64,000 nt of DNA from Sipunculus nudus (taxonomy: Eukaryota > Annelida > Sipuncula > Golfingiida > Sipunculidae): the NCBI GenBank assembly GCA_026874595.1, contig CM049320.1:3475464-3539463 (forward strand). Reading direction: 5' to 3'. The position numbers and the translations under genes were made by a program. Within the stretch, counting starts at the first letter, position 1. The number at the start of each line of letters is the position of its first letter. Below, one piece after another: positions 9,932 to 37,631 of this stretch. The notes under the pieces are model-generated. The model was not told the origin of the DNA. It saw nothing but the letters and a program-made list of their open reading frames with translations, and did no database searches.

Positions 9932-10399
9932 TTAAAATATGCAGGAGGGTTCATGACGCCCTGTGCATGTCCTCTGACCCGCACAAATTGCCCGGTCCAT
10001 GTTTATAATGTTTGCCTCAAGGACCAGGTGGTCTGGGTTGATACATCTCTTGTTATGACACAAGTGCGATATGTGCAATATTTGCCCAGTGTTGTTTTTT
10101 TCTGGCAAAGTCTGACGGCCATGACACACCAGGTACATGAGTCTGTGTGCATGCATCTCACCCTTCTTTGAGAAGGGATTCCTGACTCTGCCGTATCCAT
10201 CCCTGGTCAGTCCCCTCTCCCACAGAATACAGCCAGGAGTATAAGGCGCACCAATGACTGAGAACTTCAACAGTCTCTCCTTAATCTTACCAAAATCCAT
10301 ACTGATCAGAAACTGCGAGTCTGGGTTAAAACACTTGAAAACAATCCCATTAAACTTACTTGACAGCTGGTTACTTGATTTGTATACTCTTGTTGCCAT
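9932..10399 (-). CDS. I-PpoI-like His-Me finger (HNH-type) endonuclease
   Basis: A single uninterrupted 155-codon frame. Residues ~54-92 (GCILW, GYGRVRNPF, AHRLMYL) match the N-terminal part of the zinc-bound His-Me finger family typified by the homing endonuclease I-PpoI (Pfam PF05551). The core SHLCHNKRCINPDHL follows at ~108-122, then NMDRAIC and CTGRHEPSC at the end. By comparison with I-PpoI, the catalytic His (in SHLC), the metal-binding Asn (in IINMD), the Cys/Cys/His of zinc site 1 and the C-C-H-C of zinc site 2 are all present. Such enzymes nick or cut DNA using one metal ion. The ATG context is fair (TTCTATGG), with TATA-like sequence ~75 bp upstream. The gene lies between duplicated EXOSC10-like exon blocks, on the same strand. 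Host role unknown: selfish element, domesticated nuclease or transposon cargo. Intact active-site residues argue against old decay. Confidence 0.85.
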   Translation of the reverse strand: MATRVYKSSNQLSSKFNGIVFKCFNPDSQFLISMDFGKIKERLLKFSVIGAPYTPGCILWERGLTRDGYGRVRNPFSKKGEMHAHRLMYLVCHGRQTLPEKNNTGQILHISHLCHNKRCINPDHLVLEANIINMDRAICAGQRTCTGRHEPSCIF

Positions 10400-10486: not shown

Positions 10487-10780
10487 TCATTGTAAATAAA
10501 GCTGTATTGCATACATACCTGACCATCTTTTTGACAGCTCCAGCACATTGGTCTCAGTAGCACCTGTAGCGATGAAACGCGGAATACAATACTCAAATAT
10601 ATTTAACATTTAAGTCACCCTTGGTGGCTGTGGTCTGAGGGACCATACTGAACCGAATAAACTTGGCGCCTCATTTGAGAGCTATGAGCCTAGTTCTCTC
10701 CCATTCTGTAGATGGCAGCACCTCCCAGAGTCAACTGTGGTGAAGGCACGCCTCTCACAGCATCCAGTGTCAAAATGTTT
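10487..10780 (-). pseudogene. Duplicated upstream exon, copy 2 (EXOSC10-like locus)
   Basis: Homologous to 8,103-8,345 but with an extra ~80-bp segment bordered by GGTGAC and CTACAG, which could be a very short intron. On the minus strand a TATAAAAC box (about 10,785) lies near the block's start, so this may be the original 5' end with its promoter. If the short intron is removed the frame starts MVPQTTATKGATETNVLEL. The block ends with the same GTATGTATG donor as copy 1. Its final codon phase differs by one base from what the 7,412-7,546 exon needs. Confidence 0.45.
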
Positions 10781-20515: not shown

Positions 20516-20653
20516 TAGTGTAGAGGATTGACCTGGGGTCAAAAGTCGGGGTTGATGACACATGCACATAGGACCTAAAGCCGAGAGAAGCGGCACGTTA
20601 AACCTGGAGAGGTAGAGCTAGAACGGGTTCGAGAGCAGGCTGACGATCTACGA
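20516..20653 (+). mobile_element. LTR R-U5 fragment of the gypsy-like element
   Basis: Closely matches 33,702-33,841: GACCTGGGGTCAAA, AGCCGAGAGAAGCGGCA, GAGAGCAGGCTGAC, then the CGATCTACGA site. It starts about where transcription should start in the 3' LTR, ~31 bp below that LTR's TATA box. The promoter (U3) half is absent. Probably the left part of the 5' LTR whose right part resumes at 29,768; the ~9 kb between is inserted DNA. Confidence 0.75.
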
Positions 20654-21223
20654 ACCATCAAGGGTGACCATAAAATGTTAGATATATCTGAGAGTACATT
20701 TTATAGTCACCACCCCATTTGTGCACTTGGGTGGGATTCAAAGCTCAGTATGATCTGTGTCTATAAAAGGAAGAATACCCCTCAGTAACTCAAGTATCTC
20801 ATTTTTAAAAGACAAATTTCTGTTATGATAAGCTAATTGCATAAATTCCCTGCTTAATTAAGTCTATAACCCTTATAAAACGGGACCAGTACACAAAGCA
20901 TTGTTGCCGCTACATTTACAATCTAACTGCTTCTGTCCTGGCGGTTATGAGCATTACGACCCATTACTAAGACCAAAATACACAATAACTATAAAGAAAA
21001 TGCACTTACAGTTGCCAATATGTTGCAGTTGTATTAAAAATAAGATACTTTTACCATGGTGAAGAAATTTTAATGTCACCCCATCCGTGAAACGAAAAAT
21101 AAAACTGCCTTTTCCAGAAAATACGATCGTATCGTGGTTTGACACCACTTATTTCTATATATTGGGAGGCAACGACACAGTCGTCCGTTACCGGGGCAAG
21201 ACATTTCGTCGCTGCAGGCGGCT
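20654..21223. other. Unassigned insert between LTR and LINE-A
   Basis: Not LTR and not LINE by my comparison. It is bounded by CGATCTACGA on the left and GGCTAACGATCT on the right. Near its start is an inverted repeat (GGTGACCATAAAATGT / ACATTTTATAGTCACC). Confidence 0.4.
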
Positions 21224-21229
21224 AACGAT

Positions 21230-22929
21230 CTTCAGTTTACAAATGTTTAAATGTGTTTCATGTTTTTCAGGGGGCGTGCGGGGCAAAAGTCAATATGGAA
21301 AAAACTGAGGGTTTGTGGCTTGGAAATTTTATTGGGAGGGCTGATAAACCGTGCAATATAAATTGGTCTTCAGATAGTGTTAAAGTTTTGGGTTTTACAT
21401 TGGGAAATTCAGACACAATTAAAGAGAACTGGGAACCGAAAATCAAGAAGTTTCAAAATACGCTTTATTTTTAGTCACTTCGTAATTTAACTTATACTGA
21501 AAAGGTAACTGTCGCAAACTGTACTGTAAGTAGTGGTATTTGGTATTTCTCTAATCTTATATATGTACCACCGTGGGTTGTTAAGAAAATTGAGAAACAT
21601 TTATTGGAATTTTTCTGGAATTTTAAGAGACACTTGGTTCGGAAGGAGGTTATCATTTTGCCAAGAGATAAAGGTGGACAAAATCTAGTGGATGTTCATT
21701 CCAAAATAATTGCACAGAGGGCGCTTTGGTTATCTAAGGTTATATATATGGATCATAAATGTAAGTGTTTGGCAGAGTATTTTATTGGCAGTTATAAAGG
21801 TTTAAAGTTGGGGAGAGATGTGTTATCTTGTGTTTTGGATATTAATGCTAAGAATTGTAAGGATCAACCTTTAATTTACAGGGAAATGTTAAAATCTTGG
21901 GAGAAAATTAATATACATCACCGTGTAGTTCCGTTTAATAAAACGGCTGTATTAGATCAATTTTGGTTTTTGAATTCAGAGATTGTAGATATTCAAGGGA
22001 AACCTATAGTATTGCATGATTTTGTTATTAAAGGATGTAGGAAGATCAGAGATATATGGGACAGACGGGTGGGATTCTTTCGTAGATTTGAAGAGATAAC
22101 TACACGGTATGGGATTAGTAACACCTCTCGGGTAAAAAGTAAGTATTGTAATTTGATAAAAGCAGTGCCAGAGTCATGGATTTCTATATTACGTAGGGGA
22201 AGAGAGTCGGAGGTAAAATATGAGTTTGGCTTTGCAAAGCATAATGACTTCATTAATATTAATTGTTTTAAATGTAAAAAATTGTATGATATTTTGATTG
22301 ATATTATTGTACCAAACTGTGTCAATAAGTGGCAAGGAGTTTTTAATCATGATGTAGGATGTAAACATATATTCAAGCATTGTTACAAACAGCTGAATGA
22401 CAAGTATCAACTAGACATGAATTGGAATTTTTTACATTTGGCATTACCAACTAAGGATTTTCTAGTAAAGTGTAACATTTTAACAGATAAAACTTGTAAC
22501 ATGTGTAGTTCAGAGGAAACAAATTTGCATATTTTTTCGGATTGTCCTGTGGCTTTTAAATTTTGGAAGGAAGTTAATATATGGTTCAGGAAAGTTGCAG
22601 GTGAAACAATTAAATTAAATTTGTATTCTATTTGTTTTGGATTTGGGCACAAGTAGAAGGAACTTTCTGAGAATTGTATTAGTTTGTTAAATTTTATGTT
22701 GTATACAGGAAGATATGTATTGTGGACCAACCGTAATAAGAGTATTGTTTCTGCACCATTGCATATAGTATGTTTTTGGAGAAATTTAATTATCAGCCGG
22801 ATTAAAGAGGAATACTACAATAGCTTACATAGAGGAGAGAGAGAGAAGGACCGGTTTAAGAATACCTGGGGATTTAATGAAGCATTATGTAAAGTAGATT
22901 GTTCTTATAAACTCTTCATTTTAATGTGA
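21230..22929 (+). pseudogene. LINE-A ORF2 C-terminal remnant
   Basis: One reading frame throughout, interrupted by two TAG codons (about 21,472 and 22,655) and no frameshift. Visible parts: GAKVNMEKTEGLWLG just after the polymerase core, the thumb/linker region, and the terminal zinc-knuckle-like CNMCSSEETNLHIFSDC. The endonuclease and polymerase core are missing through 5' truncation. Confidence 0.85.
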
Positions 22930-23495
22930 TTTTTTTTTCAGGGGTAAGGGGTGTCTTGGAGATATGTTAAATAATCTGAAGGATTTTGTGGTTAGATTTT
23001 GTTTTTATTAGGGCGATATGCATGTTTGTTCTAGGTTTTCTTTAAATTTGATTTTCACTTCCATCAGGTTGTACAGCTGATTATAGATGTTCTGACTCTG
23101 TGAAAAGGTACGTGTAAATTTATAGGATTATATTTGGTGAATTGTGCGTTAAACTTTTAATTTCATTTTTCTTTACTCTATGTTATAGTCTAGATTGAGT
23201 TAAGTTAGATTTGGTGAGTTTTGATTTTGCTGGTTTTGTTTGTTTTTGAATATGATGTGTACCGCACGTATATGGCTTCAGATATGTTATGGTTGTCAGT
23301 TATTGATTAAGTTTTGTTTATCATTTCTGTAGTTCAGGTCGAATACATGTTTGCATGTTTATGTTTGCATTTGCATGTGCATGGTATTGTTATCATTATG
23401 TGGTAGGATGTATGTATATATTGTTTGTATATATATAAATATATGAATATGAATACCTTTGATTTTAATAAACAATAAAAAAAAAAAAAAAAAAA
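21230..23495 (+). mobile_element. LINE-A: 5'-truncated Tx1-like non-LTR retrotransposon
   Basis: Homology to LINE-B starts ~21,230, just after the YADD region, and continues through the C-terminal part of ORF2, a ~560-bp 3' UTR, TTTTAATAAACAAT and an A tail (23,477-23,495). It is flanked by CGATCT on both sides (21,226 and 23,496), consistent with target-site duplication. Protein identity to LINE-B is only about half by eye, so this is a different family of the same lineage. Confidence 0.85.
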
Positions 23496-23503
23496 CGATC
23501 TAC
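23496..23503 (+). repeat. Shared target-site duplication between LINE-A and LINE-B
   Basis: CGATCTAC lies between the A tail of LINE-A and the first base of LINE-B. It recurs at 29,768-29,775 after LINE-B's tail, and in the LTR fragment at 20,644-20,651. Confidence 0.8.
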
Positions 23504-23505
23504 AA

Positions 23506-24402
23506 TTGATTTTCGATTCAACGGAAACTGCTGAACTTGTGGCTATGGAAGGAGTTCAAGTAAGAAATAGAACTCTAGAAACCAAAATGGCGGAAGACAG
23601 CAGACCAGTTTGGGTTTCCCTGCGCGGACTACCACTCGATATTGAACACGAAGAATTCACAAACAACTTACGTCCTTATGGCAAGGTGCTGAGGGGTTGC
23701 CGACACAAGATTTGGCCAGGTACGGAGCTGCCAAAACTTGATAGGGAGGCACTTATGTTCGTTGAAACTGAACTTCCAGATCGAATGGAATTTGACCATA
23801 ATGGCGACAGGTATGTAGCGTACATACGCTACAAAGGTAAAACACAAGTTTGCTGGCGATGCAAAGGTGAAGGACATGTTCAAAGAAATTGCCCGGAACG
23901 GGAACGCGATATCGAAACGGTGATCCAGACGTCAAGACTACCTGTGGCAGATAGAGAAAATAGTGATATTATACTTACCTCAAACGCTGACACTGAGAGA
24001 TCCGTAGAAGGAGCTACAGGCATATCTGCAGAGATGTCCGATGATGACCCGTTTCCTCCCCTCATGATTGTTGAAGTTGTAGCATCTGAAAAAGAAAAGG
24101 ATACAGCTATAGGAATGAAACGTCGGTTATCGGAGTCACCGTCTGAGCCAGCAGTCGTTCTGAAGAAACCGCCTCGAAAAGTCGCTGACGATCATAGACC
24201 TTTGATATAGTCGGAGCCGCCTACAGATACCGCCGCTGCAAAGTCAAAAAAACCGGCAGCTTCCCCCAAACTACAAGTACTGACAGCAGCAAGTAGACCT
24301 CTGGCACGTCCTCCGACTACGGATAAAGATCGACCCCCCTCTGCCGACCAGCCGCCAGCCCAAGGATCGCGAGATGACTCATCGGGCTCGGAATATTATT
24401 AA
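23506..24402 (+). pseudogene. LINE-B ORF1 (nucleic-acid-binding protein), truncated, one stop
   Basis: Open from the element's first base. An RRM-like stretch (VWVSLRGLPLDI...YGKVLRG) precedes one CCHC knuckle, CWRCKGEGHVQRNC, at ~23,850. A TAG at 24,208 interrupts the frame, which then continues, rich in Pro/Ala/Ser, to TAA at 24,400. ORF1 proteins of this clade package element RNA. There is no in-place start codon from the original gene. Confidence 0.8.
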
Positions 24403-24417
24403 CAAACGCTACAACTT

Positions 24418-24445
24418 TCATATATATATATATATATATATATTG
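24418..24445. repeat. (AT)n tract between ORF1 and ORF2
   Basis: About 11 AT units just upstream of the ORF2 start at 24,450. Confidence 0.9.
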
Positions 24446-24449
24446 TATT

Positions 24450-27400
24450 ATGGTTAGCACGCTAGCCAGCCTAAACATTCGAGGACTTGGTGATACGAAA
24501 AAGCAACGTGATTTAAAGAACTTTGTGTTTAAAAATAATATTACTATTTTATGTCTCCAGGAAACCTTTTTATATTCTTCAGATTATAACGTTATAGCTA
24601 AATCGTGGGGGGAACCTTTTATTCCTGTAGCTCCATAAATCGCCAAGCTGGTACTTCGATCTGGATTGCTGGTGATATTGACGCCGAAATAAAAGATTTC
24701 AAACATGATACATCCGGGCGAATCGTAAGTATAGTTTTATCAATTGGCTCCTTAGTTTTTAATCTTATAAACGTATATTGCCCAACTAACAAAGGTGAAA
24801 GACGCAAATTTATCAAAGATATCCCCAACTTTATATTGTCCAAAGATACAACTGAATGTCCAGTTATATTAGCAGGAGATTTTAATTTTATTGAAAACTT
24901 ATTATTAGATAAGCAAGGGGGGAGCTCGGTATTAAAGGATTGCCTGATTGGTTGTAAAGATATAGATCACTTAAAAGATATGTATATGCTAGAGGATTCT
25001 TTTCGAGTTTTAAACCCACTAGAGAAACGATTTACCTTTCATAACATATCCTTAAACATACACACCCGAATAGATCGAATATATACCAGTCGTACTATCA
25101 ATGTAAAAGATTCTAAAATATTAAGAAACGTATTGTCAGACCACGACTGTATCACTATTAAATTACAGGGCCGTATAAAACGAGGCCCCGGTTTCTGGCA
25201 CTTTAATGCATCTATCTTACAAGACGACAAGTATATTGAGACTATATGTTCATTTTGGAAATTCTGGCAAAGCCAGATAGATAATTATAATAATATTTTA
25301 ACTTGGTGGGATATGGGGAAACTTAAAATAAAAGACATAACTCGGTCCTATTGTAAACTCAAGGTGAAGGCCGAACGGCGTACTCGGTCACTTTTAGAAC
25401 GAAAATACAATGAAGAGTTAAGCAGGCACGAGCAGGGTACTAATAATAACGTGCACGGGCTTTTAGTTCTCCAAAATAACCTTAAGGATTTTCATGAAAA
25501 GGAATCTAGGGCCGCTGCCATTCGCTGTAAGATCCAGCACCGGGAACAGGGGGAAAGATTGTCTAAAGTTTTCTTGGGGTTGGAGAAACAAAGGGGAGTC
25601 CAGCGAACCGTAAACGCACTCGAAGACTCACAAGGACATGTGCACTCGGATACAAAAGGCATTCTTAACACGGGGGTCAGCTTTTATAAAAGTCTCCATT
25701 CAAAGGAACCGACGGACACAGCGTCGGAACTTTTCTTTTTAAATTCCCAGGTTGTAAAACTGCCGTTAACAGATGCCTCCAGTTGTGAGGGTGAAATTTC
25801 TTTTGGAGAAGCAACCGAAGCGTTAAAAAGCTTTAAAAGCGGGAAAAGTCCGGGTCTTGATGGCCTAACGTGTGATTTCTATAAGCATTTTTGGGGCCTG
25901 TTAGGGCCAGATTTAGTGAATGTTTTTAATTATGCTTTCCAGACCGGTAACTTATGTCTCTCTCAGAGACGAGGTATCATCACTATTTTTCATAAAAAAG
26001 GGAACCGACAATTGTTAAAAAATTGGAGACCAATCACACTACTTAATGTTGATTATAAGATCTTGACGAAATGTTTATGCAATAGGTTACGTTCGGTTTT
26101 ACCTAGAATTATTAATATTGATCAAACTTGCTCAATTAAAGGTCGGTCTATTTTTCAAAGTGCTTCCCTCGTACGAGATGTTATCGATTATATGAATTTA
26201 AAACAATTGCCTGGAGCGTTAGTATGTTTAGATCAAGAAAAAGCTTTTGACAGATTAGATTGGGATTTTATGTTTAAATGTTTAGAAAGTTTTGGGTTTG
26301 GATCTGATTTTATTAAGTGGATTAAATTATGTTACAGTGATGTGCAGAGTTGCTTAAAGATTATTGGGTTTATGTCATCTTTTTTTAATTTGCATAGGGG
26401 CACCAGACAGGGTTGCCCCCTAAGTCCTTTGTTATATGTAATCGTAGCTGAGCTGATGGCCAATACAATTAGAAAAGATAAATATATTAACGGAATCATA
26501 TTACCTGGTAACAATGAACTACGAATTTCACAATATGCTGATGATACTACTCTATTTTTATCTGATATTCCATCCATCGACAGATGTTTTAAACTTTTAA
26601 ATGTTTTTCAGGGCGCATCTGGGGCTAAAATCAATTTGGAGAAAACAGAAGGTTTGTGGTTAGGTAAGTGGGTAGGGAGGGATCAAGGTCCGTGTAACAT
26701 TATGTGGAAGGCTGATTATGTTAAAGTGTTGGGTTTTTATTTAGGAAACGTGAATACATTGAAGATAAATTGGGACCCAAAAATTAAGAAGTTCCAGAAT
26801 ATTTTTTATTTGTGGGGACAGAGAGACCTGACATACACAGGTAAAGTGGTTATATCTAATTCTATTGTTTCTAGTATGATTTGGTATTCCTCATATGTCA
26901 TTCCATTACCAGATTGGGCATGTGACAAATTTGAAAAACTGTTATTGAATTTTTTGTGGAATTATAAAAAACCCTTGGTGAGTAAAGATGTTATCGTGTT
27001 GCCAAGAGAAAAAGGTGGGCAAAACCTTGTAAGTGTTAAAGATAAAGTGCAAGCACAGAGAGTTAAGTGGCTTTTTAATGTTTTGAATACAAATCACAAG
27101 TGTCGAGATTTAGCAAATTATTTTATCGGGCTGCACAAAGATTTGAATTTTGGGTTTGATATATTGAGATGTACCTATGAAGTCACGTCCGTGAACTGTA
27201 AAGGTCAACCACTTATATACAAAGAAATGTTAAAAGGGTGCCTCAAACTTAATATTGTTTCCAAATGCGAACCATTTAATAAGAGCGTCGTTTTAGATGA
27301 ATTGTTGTTTTTGAACAGCAAGATTGTCGATGATAACGAGAAGCCTTATTTAATTAAAGAATTTATGTTGAAAGGTTGTAAAAAAGTAAAAGATATATGG

Positions 27401-28267
27401 AATAGGAGAATTGGCTACTTTTATAGATATAGAGATATATGCATGCGCTTTAATATCTCCTTTTCAGAATGGCTAAATTCAAAATACGGTAAACTATTAA
27501 ATAGTATACCTTCAACCTGGGTGTCTGTTCTCCGTAGAGGACGAGAAGCACCGTTTAGCTTATCATATGGAATCCAGATAAGTAATGTTAAGTTTATTGA
27601 ATGTATGAATTTCACTACCAAGTTATTATATAGTTCCTTGTTGAAAGAATCAGAACCTAATTGTATGAAGAAATGGAAGACTATATTCAATAACGAGTTA
27701 CAAGTTAAACACATATTCCAGAATTGTTATAAGAATATAAATGATCGATATCAGTTGGATATAAATTGGAGATTCCTGCATTTGGTTTTACCACCTAAAG
27801 ACTATCTATTTAAATGTAAAGTTTTGAGCGATGACTCTTGTTCAGTTTGCAATTGTAAAGAATCAAACTTACATGTGTTCTCTGAGTGTCAGGTAGCGTT
27901 CAACTTATGGATTGGTATTAATGATTGGTTTAATAGAATTGTTGGCAAACCTGTTCGTGTGAATCTTTTTACAATATGTTTTGGTTTCGACCATAAACAT
28001 AAGATTATGTCCGATAAATGTATCTTGTTGTGTAACTTTATATTGTATACCGCTAAATATGTTCTATGGAAAAATAGGAATCAGACTATTATAGGTACTC
28101 CCCTACAACCGTTAGCCTTTGTAAGAAATATGATATGTAACAGAATTAAGGAAGAATATTTCATTTCAAAAGGAAACGAGAATTTGGATCGATTTAGTCA
28201 ATTTTGGTGTTTAAATGACGTATTATGTACACTAGGTGTTAAACAGGAACTACGGATACTGATATGA
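24450..28267 (+). pseudogene. LINE-B ORF2 (endonuclease-reverse transcriptase), one frameshift
   Basis: The ATG at 24,450 opens an APE-type endonuclease: LNIRGLG, LQET, NVYCPTNKG, LAGDFNFI, RIDRIYTS and SDHD all present in order. A single base is missing in a G run at 24,607-24,612, shifting frame after ~52 residues; from there 1,219 codons are open to 28,267. The reverse transcriptase spans ~25,840-26,700, with catalytic YADD at 26,534-26,545. A CCHC-like motif (CSVCNCKESNLHVFSEC) lies near 27,840. The encoded protein would nick a target and copy its RNA into it (target-primed reverse transcription). The lesion in a homopolymer could be a sequencing error, so the copy may be young. Confidence 0.9.
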
Positions 28268-29750
28268 TTATAGAGTTAATAGTTGATATGCCTCTTTATT
28301 TCTCTATCTCTTCTTCCCGTTAGTTGGGTGTGTGTATATATATTGGTATATGTATGTGTGTGCATATATATATATATATGTATATGTGTGTATATATATA
28401 TATATGTATGTATAATGTATAACCTTTCATTCGCTTTGAGGTCTCCTTTTAATAAAGTAGATTGATTAAAATAGTTCACTCAAATAACGCCAGGGGGCGT
28501 CTCATGGTATGGGTATGGTAACAATTAGTTGCTTTGATTTTGAGTCAAGTTGATCGCCAGAGGGCGTTGATTTGTTGTGGTCTGACGCTCAATTTGTTTA
28601 AGTTAAGATTTGATTTGATTTGACTATATTCGTCCGTTTACATTAATTGATAATCTTGCAGTCCGTGCGTCTGAATATTATATGCCATGTTTGTCCGTAC
28701 GTCCGTTTGTACATGGTCTGTTTCGTCCTTAAAATAGGTTCTATGTTTGGTTATATTCGTCCGACTACATTAAATGACAATGTCTTAATTTGTGCGTCTG
28801 AATATTATATTATGCCGTGTCCGTCCGCTCGTCTGCGATTCTGGGTTTAGTTAGATTGTTTACAGCCAGATGGAGGTAAGATTCGTAAGCAACGTAGGTC
28901 AAATTCAGTATGTCTCATCAACGCTAGATGGCACTCGAGTGAGTGTCTGATCAGTTTTTACAACGTTCATTATCAACTTTTTATGGTTCTATAAGGACGA
29001 TGAATGGTAATAAGATACTAGTAACCCTTATGGGTTACTAAAGTGCGATAATGTTAATACATTCAGACACCCCAAGAAGGGATCTTATTCAAATTGGCTA
29101 TATTTAATAATTCCACACTTCGTCCGCCCTTTGTAATAACATTTTACTTAATGTCGTGTTCGTCCGTCCGCCTGTGTATACACAAGGTGTTTGCCTAGAG
29201 CAAACCAAGATCGTGGGGTTGGTTTTTTTTTATATATTATCATGCGTCTGTCTAAAATAATTTGGTTTATGAGTTTAGTTACATTGTTTACTGCCAGATG
29301 GCGATAAAGGTCATTAGTCAAATAGGTTGCTAATATCGATTTTTACTCATAAGCAGGCTGACTGAGTGTCTTTCAGTGTACCCTTATGGTTTAATTTAAC
29401 TACTTCGTCTATGGTAAACATATTTTACCTTTTTTTCTTCCAGGTTCAGTAGTGAAACACTTGCTATTTCAGGCTCCAGATTTCGAATTGATATTCTCCT
29501 TTGTTGCTCTTATATTGGCCTTATCGTTCAAATGCGTGTGTATATATATGTATATATATGTATGTGTGAGTGTATGTATATACATGTATATATGATTAGG
29601 TGTAGGTAAATGTATATATACAGGTGTATACGGATATTGTAGATGAATATAGGTATAACTTTGTATTTGTATTTTGGTTAAATGCACCATGGTGTTGGTG
29701 ATTCGTATGTACATTTGATTGTATATATATTCGATTTTAATAAACAATAT
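28268..29750 (+). other. LINE-B 3' UTR
   Basis: Holds a GT/AT microsatellite (28,338-28,412), repeated 'ATTCGTCCG...GTGCGTCTGAATATTATAT' modules (~28,625 and 28,750) and five CTCF-core-like motifs (28,487; 28,553; 28,862; 28,921; 29,290). It ends TTTTAATAAACAAT before the A tail, as in LINE-A. Confidence 0.75.
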
Positions 29751-29767
29751 AAAAAAAAAAAAAAAAA

Positions 29768-29865
29768 CGATCTACGATCGCTGCGAGGGCAACATCTTTT
29801 CACGAAAGTGGTACGTCGACGTGTATATTTATCACCTGGGTTCAGCATGTGACAGAATTTCAACA
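29768..29865 (+). repeat. Right end of 5' LTR (U5)
   Basis: CGATCTACGA then GCTGCGAGGGCAACATCTT, which matches 33,829-33,857. It continues to a terminal AACA. Confidence 0.7.
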
Positions 29866-29880
29866 TCTAGTGCCCAGCGT
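29866..29880 (+). promoter_or_regulatory. Likely primer-binding site
   Basis: TAGTGCCCAGCGT directly after the LTR end. It resembles the TGGTGCCC-type sites of metazoan LTR elements with one substitution in TGG. The matching tRNA was not determined. Confidence 0.5.
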
Positions 29881-30739
29881 ATAAAAAAATAAAATAAAAT
29901 AAATGTTAATTAAAATAGTTGGCTGACCGAGAGATTCCGTGCAGTGGCAGCCGTATTGCTAATTTGTGATTTAGAGCTAGCAGAATTTATGGTTTAGTGG
30001 GCAGATCGGAGATAAAGTTCCAGTATTTAATAGGTTATTGAGATTAAGAGGGAAGGTTGATGTCGAGAGGTTTGTTTATTTCACCTCTGTAATGCATTAA
30101 GGAGTGACAGTGCATCTAACGTGTTCGTTCGGTTGACTGAAGGTCAGGGGTCACCTGCGCGGCGCACCTGACTTCACAAGGAACAGAAAGCCAATCGAGT
30201 GGAAATTTGACCTGAATGGCAACACAACTGTTAGATTTGTTGGTGGCTTTAACTTCGCTGACTAAATTATTACCTTGGGTGCGGAAATGCGCCCAGTTTA
30301 TAGGGTTGTTCTCGCTGGAATTCCATCAAGGTGAGAATTCACCGGCTCGGTGCATCTGCCTTAAATCGATGGTTTGTTGACTGAAGTGGCCAATAAGCCT
30401 TGTGTTTTGTATATCCCTGAGGTTGCTGTTTTTGTCTGTTAATGTAAACAGTACAATCTTTTATGCTGGAATACTGACAGGATCCGTTACTGACTTTGAA
30501 CAGCATTGTCAGTCCGTGAAAAACCTAACAAAAAAGTAACGTATTGTTAAAATAATGTGTATATTGCTGTTCTTGTAAGTGGACTGGTACACCATAATAT
30601 TTTACTCCCTGAAGCAAATATAAGGGTGTTAGCTGGAATTATAGTAACGTTGAAAAGAAACAGAATCATATGTATGTGTATGTATATATACTTACTTTGA
30701 TGGCATTAATTTCACTTTAAAAGTATCTATAGGGTAAAA

Positions 30740-31911
30740 TGTTTGGTAGGTATTTGTATTGCTTTTTCAATTCAGGTAACAGTGATATTTTTTTTAATGT
30801 GCATATACCTAGTGGTTTGTCCAATTTGAGGTACCGTCTGTATATACTATCAAACTTACGGCACCAAGTGTTCTTATATGGCTATTATTGGTGGCGAATA
30901 TTGGGGGTTGTTTTGCATGCTGATCTTTGTCAATACTATATTGCTCTCCAACAATTTGTCCAAGATGTTGGAACGAAGGTTCGGGGTCAAGGAGGAGCCA
31001 CGAACAGTGCGTGGCCAGCTCTACCTGCTCCGACAGTGTATTTCGAAGTTAAGTATGGGCACCTTCGTCTGTCGATGATGAAGTGCGCGAGCAACTGGCT
31101 ATAGATTTCTTCTTAAAAGGCACCCAAGATAAGTAAGCTGCAAAGACAGCATTAGACAAAAATCCTGAAACGTGCGCAAAGCAGCCACATATGTTAAGGA
31201 ATATGTCAATAACCGAAGTATCATTTTTGGTAGCACCAAGACCAGTGTGGCTTCTATATAAATCAGATACAGTTCATTGACGGGGAGGAACTCGGTCAAT
31301 GGGAATCCCTGTGTCACAACGGAAGATGCGACCATTCACGCAGGGACCGCACAGTCACACTCTACACCAATGGACGCGTTGGCCAAAAAGCTTGGCACTC
31401 GCATGAAAGGGTCTATGGAAGTGATAGCAAAATCAATAGAAAGCTGACACAGTGCATGGGCCAAATAACGACCAGTCTGAAGGGTCCGGCTACCGACACC
31501 ACTCAGGGCAGTCGACAACAACAGCGTTCTTGGGGTGCTTCGAGTATTCAGCTTGATTGCTATCGGTGCCACAGAACTGGCCACTTTGTGCGAGAGTGTC
31601 CGATGAAGCCACCAAGGACTGGTAGTGCCAATCCAAATACTTTGGAAACCATTCGGGGTACGAAGCCCACACTAGAAGGTATACCATCCCCTACACTCTT
31701 AGCGGTCAAGACAGGTGGCCGTTGCTCTACAATGCTGGAAGGCCAGCGGGAAAATTGCAATTCCATTATACCAGATAACTGTGTAGATGCTAATTCTGTA
31801 ATTTTAAGTGTCAGCAATGTAGTTCCTGCATGTCCCAGGGTTCCAGGTAAGCCTTTTATGGCCCTTCCAGATGGTAACCCCTATCGGTGGCACTTGGACA
31901 ATTTTGACTGA
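30740..31911 (+). pseudogene. Gypsy-like gag remnant with CCHC knuckle
   Basis: Pieces in different frames: LERRFGVKEEPRTVRGQL (~30,968), SVDDEVREQLAIDFFLKGT (~31,068), YVKEYVNNRSIIFG (~31,190) and LAKKLGTRMKGS (~31,380). Next comes an open stretch with the zinc knuckle CYRCHRTGHFVREC at ~31,558. This order is that of Ty3/gypsy Gag (capsid, then nucleocapsid), which forms the particle around the element's RNA. At least two frameshifts break it. Confidence 0.75.
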
Positions 31912-31984
31912 CGCGGGACCAATGACGACGGCGAAGAGGATGTGATACACATGAACGGTTTATGGGTCTCAGTCTGTCAGTCCC

Positions 31985-32592
31985 AATTATGATTAATTGG
32001 AGGAGTGAAGCAATTGTTGATAGTGCGGGAAAAGTCACCTTAGTGAACTCCGCAGTCATGGGTGAAAGATTCACAGACCAACCTGGGAAAAGTGGTCCTG
32101 AAAAGTATTGGGGATACTGAGAAAATGGTACCTGCCGTAAGAAGGAAAGGAGTGGCCATCACCTTAGGGAATCGCACCGAATTCTGGACAGTCTATGTAG
32201 CAGAGATTCCGGACCCAGTGTTGTTAGGACTGGATTACCTGTACGATACAGTGTGTTTAGTAAATTTTGCGAAAGGAGAAATTCGTATGAATGGAAATGT
32301 GATAAATGCGACCTTCAGGAAAGGGGTAGATGGTGCCAGCTACCCCGTTAAACGGGTAGTGGTAGAGAAAAAGAGCGCAATCCCATCAGGTTCTCTGTCG
32401 ATGGGTCCAGTGACGGTGCACGCAGAAAATACCTTGGAGGATAATCCAAGGGCTTGTGATGGTACCAACGTCAAATCTGCGACACCAGTCGCAGGAGTTG
32501 TCAGTGCGGTTAACAGCCAGGAACAGGCGGTGATACCAAATATTTGGTGTGGCGTCCGAGATGGATGCTGTAATATCACCTTACGAGTCTGA
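31985..32592 (+). pseudogene. Retropepsin-type protease remnant
   Basis: IVDSAGKVTLVNSAVM (~32,008) matches the active-site region of retroelement aspartic proteases (usually D-S/T-G-A); here the order reads DSAG. Downstream WTVYVAEIPDPVLLGLDYL (~32,185) is the second hallmark (hydrophobic-hydrophobic-G). A frame change separates the two halves. The protein would cleave the Gag-Pol precursor. Confidence 0.75.
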
Positions 32593-32890
32593 GAGAACGG
32601 ATTCTGGAAAGGATGGAATATACACCTGCTCCCCAGTGATTCAGATGACGTCGCTCAGAGGAACTGTTACAGAACCGGTATCGGGTAGTGAGAGTTTCCT
32701 AGACACAGGGCCATTTCAAAGAAGTCAAGCAAAGGGCGGAATCGGAGAGAAATCAGGCTTAATTTTGCGCTATAGGGTTCTCCACCATGTTTAGCTTCCT
32801 ATCGTTTAGGAAGGTGACGCAAGTGAGCAAGGTCAATTGGAGGAGCCATGCGCTGGGAACAGGCTCTACACAAAGCGGCGGGGATGGGGC

Positions 32891-33857
32891 TGTTTTGATA
32901 TCCTGTGATGCAGTATTTTCTGTATCATATAAGATATGTGTTCGTGAGGCTTAAAGACTCCGGTATCGGTGCTCGAACTTGCATTTTTACAATGTAACCG
33001 AACCGTGGTTTTGATTCACCGTTATCGATGCTCAACCTTTAGATTACTCTGTTGGTATGTGGGAGTAATTGTTGGGGCAACATGCATCGAAACGACCTTA
33101 GTACGCGGATCCTATATTTTATGAGGTACGGTTATTCGCCGGCCGGTAGTGATAAGTCCGGGGCAGTAATGGAAGCAGTCGTGGCTTTTACACAGTGCTT
33201 GTAGTGTATTGCGTATACCTGGGTATTTGTGGATAGATTTTCTACGGTATAGGCTGGTGTCAGACAATTTGCTTACTTGACCAGAGAGACAGTATTGTTG
33301 TTTTACAGATTAAGTTATTGTTGCCCAAATTGGTTTTTACGTCCATGTGTGTGCACGGGGCCTGGGTTATGCTACACCCAGTTGTTCACACTTTCACTTT
33401 TTAGTTAGTTCCTTTTTTGCTGGCACAGGTTAAATTATTTTCTTGATGTACGCACTGGGTATGGTGGCACTGCATTCCGCTTTTCATTAGCCTTGTTATT
33501 TCTTGAAAAGAAATGTCGTTTACATGGTTAAGAACTTTGAGGATGTTGTGCACTTTGTACGTCATCGCTTTAGTTGCCTATATGGCACATAAATGTTCCT
33601 CGCTGTACTGATAGTTCCCGGGTACTAGAGTGTTTGACCACAATGTGTGCAGACCGGATCTACGCTGCTATAAAAGAGAAAACGGGGGGGGGGGGGGGGT
33701 AGTAGAGGATTTGACCTGGGGTCAAAGGTCGAAGGTTGATGACGCATGCGCATAGGACCGGAAGCCGAGAGAAGCGGCAGGTTAAACATGGAGAGCTAGA
33801 GCTAGAACGGATCCGAGAGCAGGCTGACAATCTACGAGTGCTGCGAGGGCAACATCT
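32891..33857 (+). repeat. 3' LTR, truncated in U5
   Basis: Starts TGTT after the polypurine tract. It contains TATAAAAG at 33,669 and an R-U5 part identical in layout to 20,516-20,653. It breaks off at 33,857, ~70 bp before the expected AACA end. The uninterrupted LINE target, CAATCTACGA, lies at 33,829. Confidence 0.7.
33669..33676 (+). promoter_or_regulatory. TATA box of the 3' LTR
   Basis: TATAAAAG, about 31 bp upstream of the point where the 20,516 LTR fragment begins. Confidence 0.6.
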
Positions 33858-33944
33858 TATCAACAATATATTATTTATATATTATATTATATAAAATGAA
33901 GCCTTTACAGCTCTCAGGTGAGACCGCAGGGGTGCAGGGGCGTG

Positions 33945-36561: not shown

Positions 36562-36703
36562 AACTTTTATTACACATTCAAGTAAAAGGCGTTGTAAAAT
36601 TTAACATAAACACACATGATAATCTCAAATTTAACTTTTATTACACATTCAAGTAAAAGGCGTTGTAAAATTTAACATAAACACACATGATAATCTCAAA
36701 TTT
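36562..36703. repeat. 71-bp direct tandem duplication
   Basis: Two abutting, apparently identical 71-bp units starting AACTTTTATTACACATTCAA. Confidence 0.95.
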
Positions 36704-36814
36704 CCATGTTTTTAAATTTCTTTTAATATTGAGATGTGTGCAGGACTTGGACTCAGGTTCAAAATGACTTGGATTCGAAGAAGTTGGACTTGAACTCGAA
36801 TCCGAAGGACTTGA

Positions 36815-37345
36815 ACTTGGAGTCACACCGGAGGGGCCTGGACTCGGACTTGGAGTCACACTGAAGGGGCCTGGACTCGGACTTGGAATCACACTGGAGT
36901 GGCCTGGACTCGGACTTGGACTCACACTGGAGTGGCCTGGACTCGGACTTGGAGTCACACTGGAGGGGCCTGGACTCGGACTTGGAGTCACACTGGAGGG
37001 GCCTGGACTCGGACTTGGAGTCACACTGGAGTGGCCTGGACTCGGACTTGGACTCACACTGGAGTGGCCTGGACTCGGACTTGGAGTCACACTGGAGGGG
37101 CCTGGACTCGGACTTGGTGTCACACTGGAGGGGCCTGGACTCGGGCTTGGAGTCGCACTGGAGTGGCCTGGACTCGGACTTGGAGTCACAATGGAGGGGT
37201 CTGGACTCGGACTTGGAGTCACACTGGAGTGGCCCGGACTCGAACTTGGAGTCACACTGGAGTGGCCTGGACTCGGACTTGGAGTCACACTGGAGTGGCC
37301 CGGACTCGGACTTGGAATCACACTGGAGTGGCCTGGACTCTGTCT
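36815..37345. repeat. 33-bp minisatellite
   Basis: About 16 units of CTCGGACTTGGAGTCACACT plus GGAGTGGCCTGGA. Because 33 is divisible by three, several frames stay open on both strands (11-residue periods such as LDSDLESHWSG, or SPSPGHSSVTP on the minus strand). No splice sites or start context support coding. Confidence 0.95.
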
Positions 37346-37631
37346 TGCTCTCTGACTCGGACAGTATAAACTCGACTAGATCACGGAATATTGAAGATGA
37401 AGGCGAAAAGTAGGGGCTGAGGGGGGGGGAGTGCTCTTCTGATGACTGGGCGATTGTAGAACTGTATATTATAGCATGTTAAATACACTTCTTCCTGATG
37501 TTCTTCTTCCTGATTTTCTTTTACGGATAAATCAGTTTAGCTAATAGGGTTCGAATAGTCTAGCTACATATACAAAATCCCATACATCTAAACACAGGTT
37601 TTGGCATCCATGGAGGGGATACTTTACATAC

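Follow-up and report, generated by a model that had tools for sequence, protein, structure and literature searches.

Among long interspersed nuclear elements (LINEs), Tx1L of Xenopus is reported to insert at a fixed position within the transposon that carries it. Known LINE targets include other transposable elements, with the Tx1L paper cited for this in an excerpt of PMC8869645. Keno, of the Tx1 clade, is a LINE with an apurinic/apyrimidinic (AP)-type endonuclease found at one site of U2 small nuclear RNA (snRNA) genes, and Utopia also has the U2 snRNA gene as its target, with occasional tandem insertion in one family (both from an excerpt of PMC4640811); L1-Tx1 LINEs are reported in 35 mollusc species (excerpt of PMC10294476). 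Here we describe two LINEs, LINE-A and LINE-B, stacked inside the 5' long terminal repeat (LTR) of a retrotransposon in a 64,000-nucleotide stretch of the Sipunculus nudus genome (assembly GCA_026874595.1, contig CM049320.1, positions 3,475,464 to 3,539,463; hereafter the window). The locus is an ordinary insertion nest, one component of which comes from an unexpected lineage. We suggest, with a probability of about 0.85, that it was built in three steps, the LTR receiving a miniature inverted-repeat transposable element (MITE)-like transposon, C, then C receiving LINE-A and LINE-A receiving LINE-B, and that it reflects re-use of earlier tails by the lineage of LINE-B, which is itself ectopic here.

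The 5' LTR is split, and its two parts together align with the 3' LTR. The left part (20519..20651, + strand) starts with TGTAGAGG as related LTRs do, has 90% identity to the 3' LTR over 136 bp, and ends in the target sequence ACGATCTAC (20643-20651); the right part (29776..29865, + strand) ends in TTTCAACA, followed by TCTAGTGCCC. The earlier note on this DNA, made from the window's sequence alone, had proposed that the LTR resumes to the right of LINE-B, and the first 27 bp from 29776 do align with the 3' LTR. It had also placed both LINEs between copies of CGATCTAC, the middle copy being common to both; three exact copies, with no others in the window, stand at the end of the left LTR part and after each LINE (20644-20651, 23496-23503 and 29768-29775; expected 0.57). 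By exact-match search the copy at 23496..23503 is at once the right duplication of LINE-A and the left duplication of LINE-B, and that at 29768..29775 is both the right duplication of LINE-B and, from the LTR alignment, the original LTR target. The 3' LTR (33702..33865, + strand, from LTR alignments) does hold an unoccupied site, GGCTGACAATCTACGA (33822-33837), as that note held, but the site reads CAATCT rather than CGATCT, and this LTR is apparently not intact. By eye, related LTRs end in ..TTCAACA followed by a primer-binding-like TCTGGCGCCC; from these ends, on which our placement of the 5' LTR end rests, the 5' LTR would extend to ~29865 and the 3' LTR seems to have ~60 bp missing from its 3' part.

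The left LTR part and LINE-A are separated by C (20652..21224), a complete MITE-like DNA transposon of a family with TAGCC..GGCTA ends. A first look through the 1.43 Gb host assembly (153 contigs, the scope of all our genome searches) with 20654-21219 as query gave 907 candidates; among 40 scored, the window included, 35 of the 39 others spanned query positions 2-566 and the remaining four 2-547 to 2-565, at 87-89% identity. All eight copies fetched with 40-bp flanks showed, by eye, TAG (once TAT) CC...GGCTA ends and 9-bp direct duplications, the fixed ends and constant duplication in independent copies that mark a MITE. In the window the left duplication is ACGATCTAC, and the right one starts ACGATCT at 21225 and, as ACGATCT(AC), is broken by LINE-A (21225..21231), its CGATC(T) serving also as the left duplication of LINE-A. 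The left border of LINE-A had previously been read as GGCTAACGATCT and likened to the LTR. That border is real and directly abuts LINE-A, but it consists of the C end GGCTA plus the duplication ACGATCT, a third insert of ~570 bp having been overlooked; it resembles the LTR's GGCTGACGATCT because only the last letter separates GGCTA from GGCTG. In the window GGCTRACGATCT has exact copies at 20638 and 21220, and copies that differ at one position at 33822 and 55662. We first considered GGCTGACGATCTACGA as a duplication of 16 bp and replaced this by the 9-bp duplication, and a small-RNA-gene origin of the LTR target was rejected, Rfam matches coming nowhere near the gathering score. Elsewhere in the window, a 38-bp piece at 10592-10627 (- strand) resembles the 5' end of C and is possibly a fragment of its family.

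LINE-A (21232..23495, + strand) is a 5'-truncated Tx1/L1-like LINE that begins inside the reverse transcriptase (RT) domain; it retains the RT end and part of a zf-RVT domain (PF13966, E 8e-7), with two in-frame stops and a tail of 19 A. Two longer relatives (L023, L072) match the window starting at 21231 and diverge upstream, which identifies LINE-A as a 5'-truncated insert inside the right C duplication, with CGATC(T) on both sides. LINE-B (23504..29767, + strand) is longer, with a CCHC-knuckle open reading frame (ORF), ORF1, at 23509-24207 (PF00098, 22.5 bits, cut-off 20.8), ORF2 at 24450-28267 with a frameshift near 24600, and a tail of 17 A. Its ORF2 encodes an AP-type endonuclease and RT (PF03372, PF14529 and PF00078 above cut-off), with a weak zf-RVT match (20.7 bits, under the Pfam cut-off of 27.5); among solved structures it matches human L1 ORF2p at E 1.3e-75 and R2 at E 4.7e-13. 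Judged by these predicted proteins, the AP-type endonuclease and an RT nearest L1 ORF2p put LINE-B in the L1/Tx1 superfamily, and we call it Tx1/L1-like rather than placing it within Tx1. A CCHC ORF1 fits the Tx1 clade and is not exclusive to it. The two LINEs are, as first noticed, about half identical in protein (287/566 amino acids, 51%, by tblastn), and they have a common 38-bp 3' end at 95%. LINE-B entered between the 19-A tail of LINE-A and the duplication that follows it, and CGATCTAC stands on both sides; the duplication may include As of the tail, so that the exact position of the LINE-B nick cannot be fixed. In viral and other genome contig collections no relatives of LINE-A or LINE-B were confirmed, and the poly(A)-CGATCTACGA pattern gave 0 matches in viral contigs.

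Close copies of LINE-B (95-97% identity) were few among those found, one of them lying in a U1 and another at a U4 snRNA gene. A copy in a U1 gene (L045/L074, C6:88.28 Mb) is 97% identical to LINE-B over its first 334 bp. On its left the U1 5' end (ATACTTACCTGGCACGGGGGAC) is followed by ACCGTGATCAGCAA and then by the LINE, which starts 21 nt before the ORF1 ATG and extends ~217 bp further 5' than LINE-B, whose 5' end is short by that length; the tail is followed by CCGTGATCAGCAAGG and then by the remainder of U1 (105.5 bits in Rfam). The target duplication is thus the 14-bp ACCGTGATCAGCAA, read from both junctions, the sequence covered being the two ends of the element. In a second copy (L047/L048, C11:58.28 Mb), with 96% identity in ORF2, the tail runs into GTAGCCAATGAGG of a U4 gene (89.7 bits), and two more U4 genes, 1.5 kb apart (127.4 bits each), lie beside it. 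A third (L043/L046, C6:50.24 Mb), also 96% identical in ORF2, is within a LINE stack ordered as LINE tail, CCGTGATCAGC, truncated LINE, tail, GTGATCGC and the 5' end of another LINE; the L043 tail is followed by CCGT and a further LINE 5' end. The exact tail plus CCGTGATC, the U1-type junction, occurs three times genome-wide (C6:88.289, 50.248 and 50.193 Mb; reversed control 0), and at 50.193 Mb it leads into ORF1-like sequence. The observations that bear on snRNA targeting by the LINE-B lineage are a U1 copy read at its two junctions, a single stack holding junctions of the U1 type, and one U4 3' junction; the 33 loci scanned with Rfam at gathering scores gave U1 and U4, and no U2. Because the closest copies of its lineage lie at U1 and U4 genes, we infer that LINE-B in the window is an ectopic copy, stacked on an earlier tail, of a Tx1-like LINE that probably targets snRNA genes, and not a case of cognate use of an LTR site. 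The surroundings of these copies are themselves repetitive: at C11:58.28-58.286 Mb (L048, L075, L085) U4 genes are arrayed in tandem with a 1.5-kb period, one interrupted at the LINE 3' junction, and at C6:50.19-50.25 Mb (L043, L059, L073, L084, L086) several diverged Tx1-like LINEs, some with U1-site remnants between them, possibly form one stack over 50 kb.

The LINE-B lineage is reminiscent of Keno in its AP-type endonuclease and in its close copies at snRNA genes, but Keno lies in U2, whereas LINE-B relatives lie at U1 and U4 and the window copy is outside snRNA genes; Utopia is likewise snRNA-gene-associated (excerpt of PMC4640811), but with a restriction-like endonuclease where LINE-B has an AP-type one. 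The AP-type enzyme sets LINE-B apart from R2 in the same way. For the mollusc L1-Tx1 elements, in contrast to the LINE-B relatives described here, snRNA targets go unmentioned in the excerpt of PMC10294476. With Tx1L our locus has in common a LINE inside another mobile element, although the LTR site is used only at the window locus as far as found. Titles and abstract openings of the open-licence literature yielded no LINE in U1 or U4 genes. The locus connects a Tx1-like LINE in an animal with U1 and U4 genes, and having close copies at U1 and U4 as well as on an ectopic tail would permit direct comparison of how an endonuclease family changes or relaxes its target.

Stacking at earlier tails is not confined to the window. 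Among the 26 distinct LINE tails in the fetched loci, five are followed within 7 to 62 nt by LINE protein homology in the same orientation; L059, with homology only from 423 nt on, was left out of this count. Two tails in a row at L065 (C14:16.98 Mb) lead into TCTCAAAGCCAA, with a short A-rich stretch intervening at the second, and GGGCTTAACCA is present at both L056 and L060 (C3:66.355 and 66.364 Mb), which are 8.8 kb apart; the sites of these stacks have no Rfam match. Successive LINEs repeatedly use one duplication, and the window locus is one more such case. We suggest that a poly(A) tail with its duplication is probably a preferred substrate. The history of the locus would be as follows. 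C inserted in the 5' LTR at ACGATCTAC and duplicated these 9 bp, as the duplications of its relatives show. LINE-A RNA would next have been retroposed, by the target-primed reverse transcription general to LINEs, into the right C duplication, leaving a 5'-truncated copy with CGATC(T) flanks, the junction being set by its longer relatives. LINE-B RNA would last have been retroposed at the border between the LINE-A poly(A) and its duplication, where CGATCTAC is seen on both sides. The spot would be re-used because each LINE insertion leaves a poly(A) and a short duplication at which the lineage inserts its next copy, head to tail at the earlier tail; the recurrence is seen elsewhere, and this cause for it is our proposal.

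The same step admits a simpler account, in which LINE-B used the LINE-A poly(A) as a T-rich target, the duplication was A(n)CGATCTAC, and snRNA specificity played no part. L1-type LINEs use T-rich targets, the LINE-A tail is 19 A long, the edge of the duplication falls inside an A-run where it cannot be fixed, and there are stacks at non-snRNA sites (L056, L065), but close relatives have U1 and U4 junctions whose sequences are not T-rich. We give this account slightly under even odds, and it is compatible with the three-step nest as its third step.

An snRNA-targeting endonuclease might instead have accepted the LTR site as an off-target because CGATCTAC resembles its U1 site. GATC does lie a few bases after the nick in both, A/CCGTGATCAGC and A/CGATCTAC, and GTGATC comes right after the tail at U1-type junctions. 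The resemblance is short and judged by eye, however, the U4 junction GTAGCCAATG has no GATC, and LINE-A relatives sit at unrelated sequences, and we consider such near-cognate use unlikely.

The earlier note had gone further, proposing that the lineage is aimed at CGATCTAC and that the LTR is its docking site, by way of a LINE endonuclease recognising GGCTRACGATCTAC; this would be a new parasite-on-parasite system and is not what the locus shows. Searches with the 3' regions gave 23 matches from 19 candidates for LINE-A and 50 matches for LINE-B, the latter survey incomplete with 40 of 191 candidates scored. These yielded 23 copies with a complete 3' end that lie outside the window (LINE-A search, 10; LINE-B search, 13), after exclusion of the window copies (L019, L042), one copy with its 3' end missing (L022), pieces of counted insertions (L024, L031, L034, L044, L046, L047), matches whose 3' end was not reached or was a microsatellite (L026, L030, L033, L036, L038-L041, L053-L055, L057, L061, L062, L064, L066-L071), and 20 LINE-B matches whose loci were not extracted. 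None of the 23 has CGATCTAC just after its tail, the closest two having 3 mismatches of 8; in six (L020, L029, L032, L035, L058, L059) the flank start set by the script fell inside an A/T-rich tail, and these, judged by eye, also had no CGATCTAC. Independent copies thus did not have the flank of the window site in common. A genome-wide search for the exact tail followed by AAAA and CGATCT (AATAAACAAT, then at most 25 bases, then AAAACGATCT) gave two places, both of them the window's own junctions. The LTR fared no better as a target: it gave 13 genome matches, two of them in the window, and the 11 outside, covering 74-113 bp of the query's first 114 bp at 77-81% identity, all had no CGATCT in the LTR, one of these loci having CGATCTAC 1.2 kb away. 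Of the three genomic occurrences of the 16-mer GGCTGACGATCTACGA, one is in the window and two are in copies of a different repeat, around each of which 10 kb of sequence showed nothing similar to the window LINEs. From the junctions, the pattern search, the site-less LTR relatives and the occurrence of GGCTGACGATCTACGA elsewhere, neither the CGATCTAC site nor the LTR looks to be a target of these LINE families, and a docking site is very improbable despite the 8-bp border common to both LINEs and the left border GGCTAACGATCT, itself the C end and its duplication. The broader idea of a target-specific lineage fails at the window site and survives at U1 and U4 snRNA genes and in LINE stacks elsewhere. 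The outside copies of GGCTGACGATCTACGA (L004, C2:88.82 Mb; L005, C17:48.78 Mb) hold it in an open frame (..WLTIYD..), and the L043 flank and six other loci, searched against Rfam to E up to 2, gave microRNA-type matches and one weak U3 match, all below gathering.

There is a negligible chance that an older LINE-A and its upstream sequence were retroposed together into the LTR as a chimeric transcript, an idea prompted by the ~570 bp between two copies of the target motif, but those ~570 bp form a full repeat that has ends and a duplication of its own. The same full-length repeat with its ends and 9-bp duplications led us to reject chimeric 5' transduction or template switching as the source of 20654-21219.

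Several observations weigh against the three-step nest with an ectopic LINE-B. C begins with GAA in the window instead of TAG, and our account has to treat it as chance that LINE-A landed inside a 9-bp duplication. L073, which was fetched since it adjoins L043, contributes two of the five stacks, so that the stacking rate is biased. The reversed control of the tail plus CGATCT pattern also gave two matches, and the two in the window are therefore no excess by themselves. An snRNA stands at the junction in 2/23 surveyed copies (Rfam, gathering scores), distant relatives being mostly elsewhere, and for U1 the evidence is drawn from two places on a single contig, C6. For the U4 copy only the 3' junction is site-exact; the 5' junction is outside U4, with the U4 start upstream and LINE homology ~0.56 kb after it. 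We hold only tentatively, at somewhat less than even odds, the wider proposal that one Tx1-like lineage or enzyme family targets both U1 and U4 and builds head-to-tail towers on earlier duplications, the tower in the window having been seeded off an snRNA gene.

The host retrotransposon has an interior of just 3.8 kb (29866..33700, + strand), with a CCHC-knuckle ORF at 31456-31911 and an ORF at 32062-32592 without a Pfam match, these two being the ORFs taken into the Pfam scan, and may be non-autonomous or deleted. Elsewhere in the window, 9932-10399 (- strand) encodes a protein that matches PF05551 (E 4.6e-14), a zinc-binding loop of His-Me homing endonucleases; in molluscs and other animals, KolobokP transposons encode proteins with such a loop (excerpt of PMC9587614). 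A 33-bp tandem repeat with several frames open lies at 36685-37443, and a long array of 41-bp tandem repeats runs from 37890 to beyond 42000.

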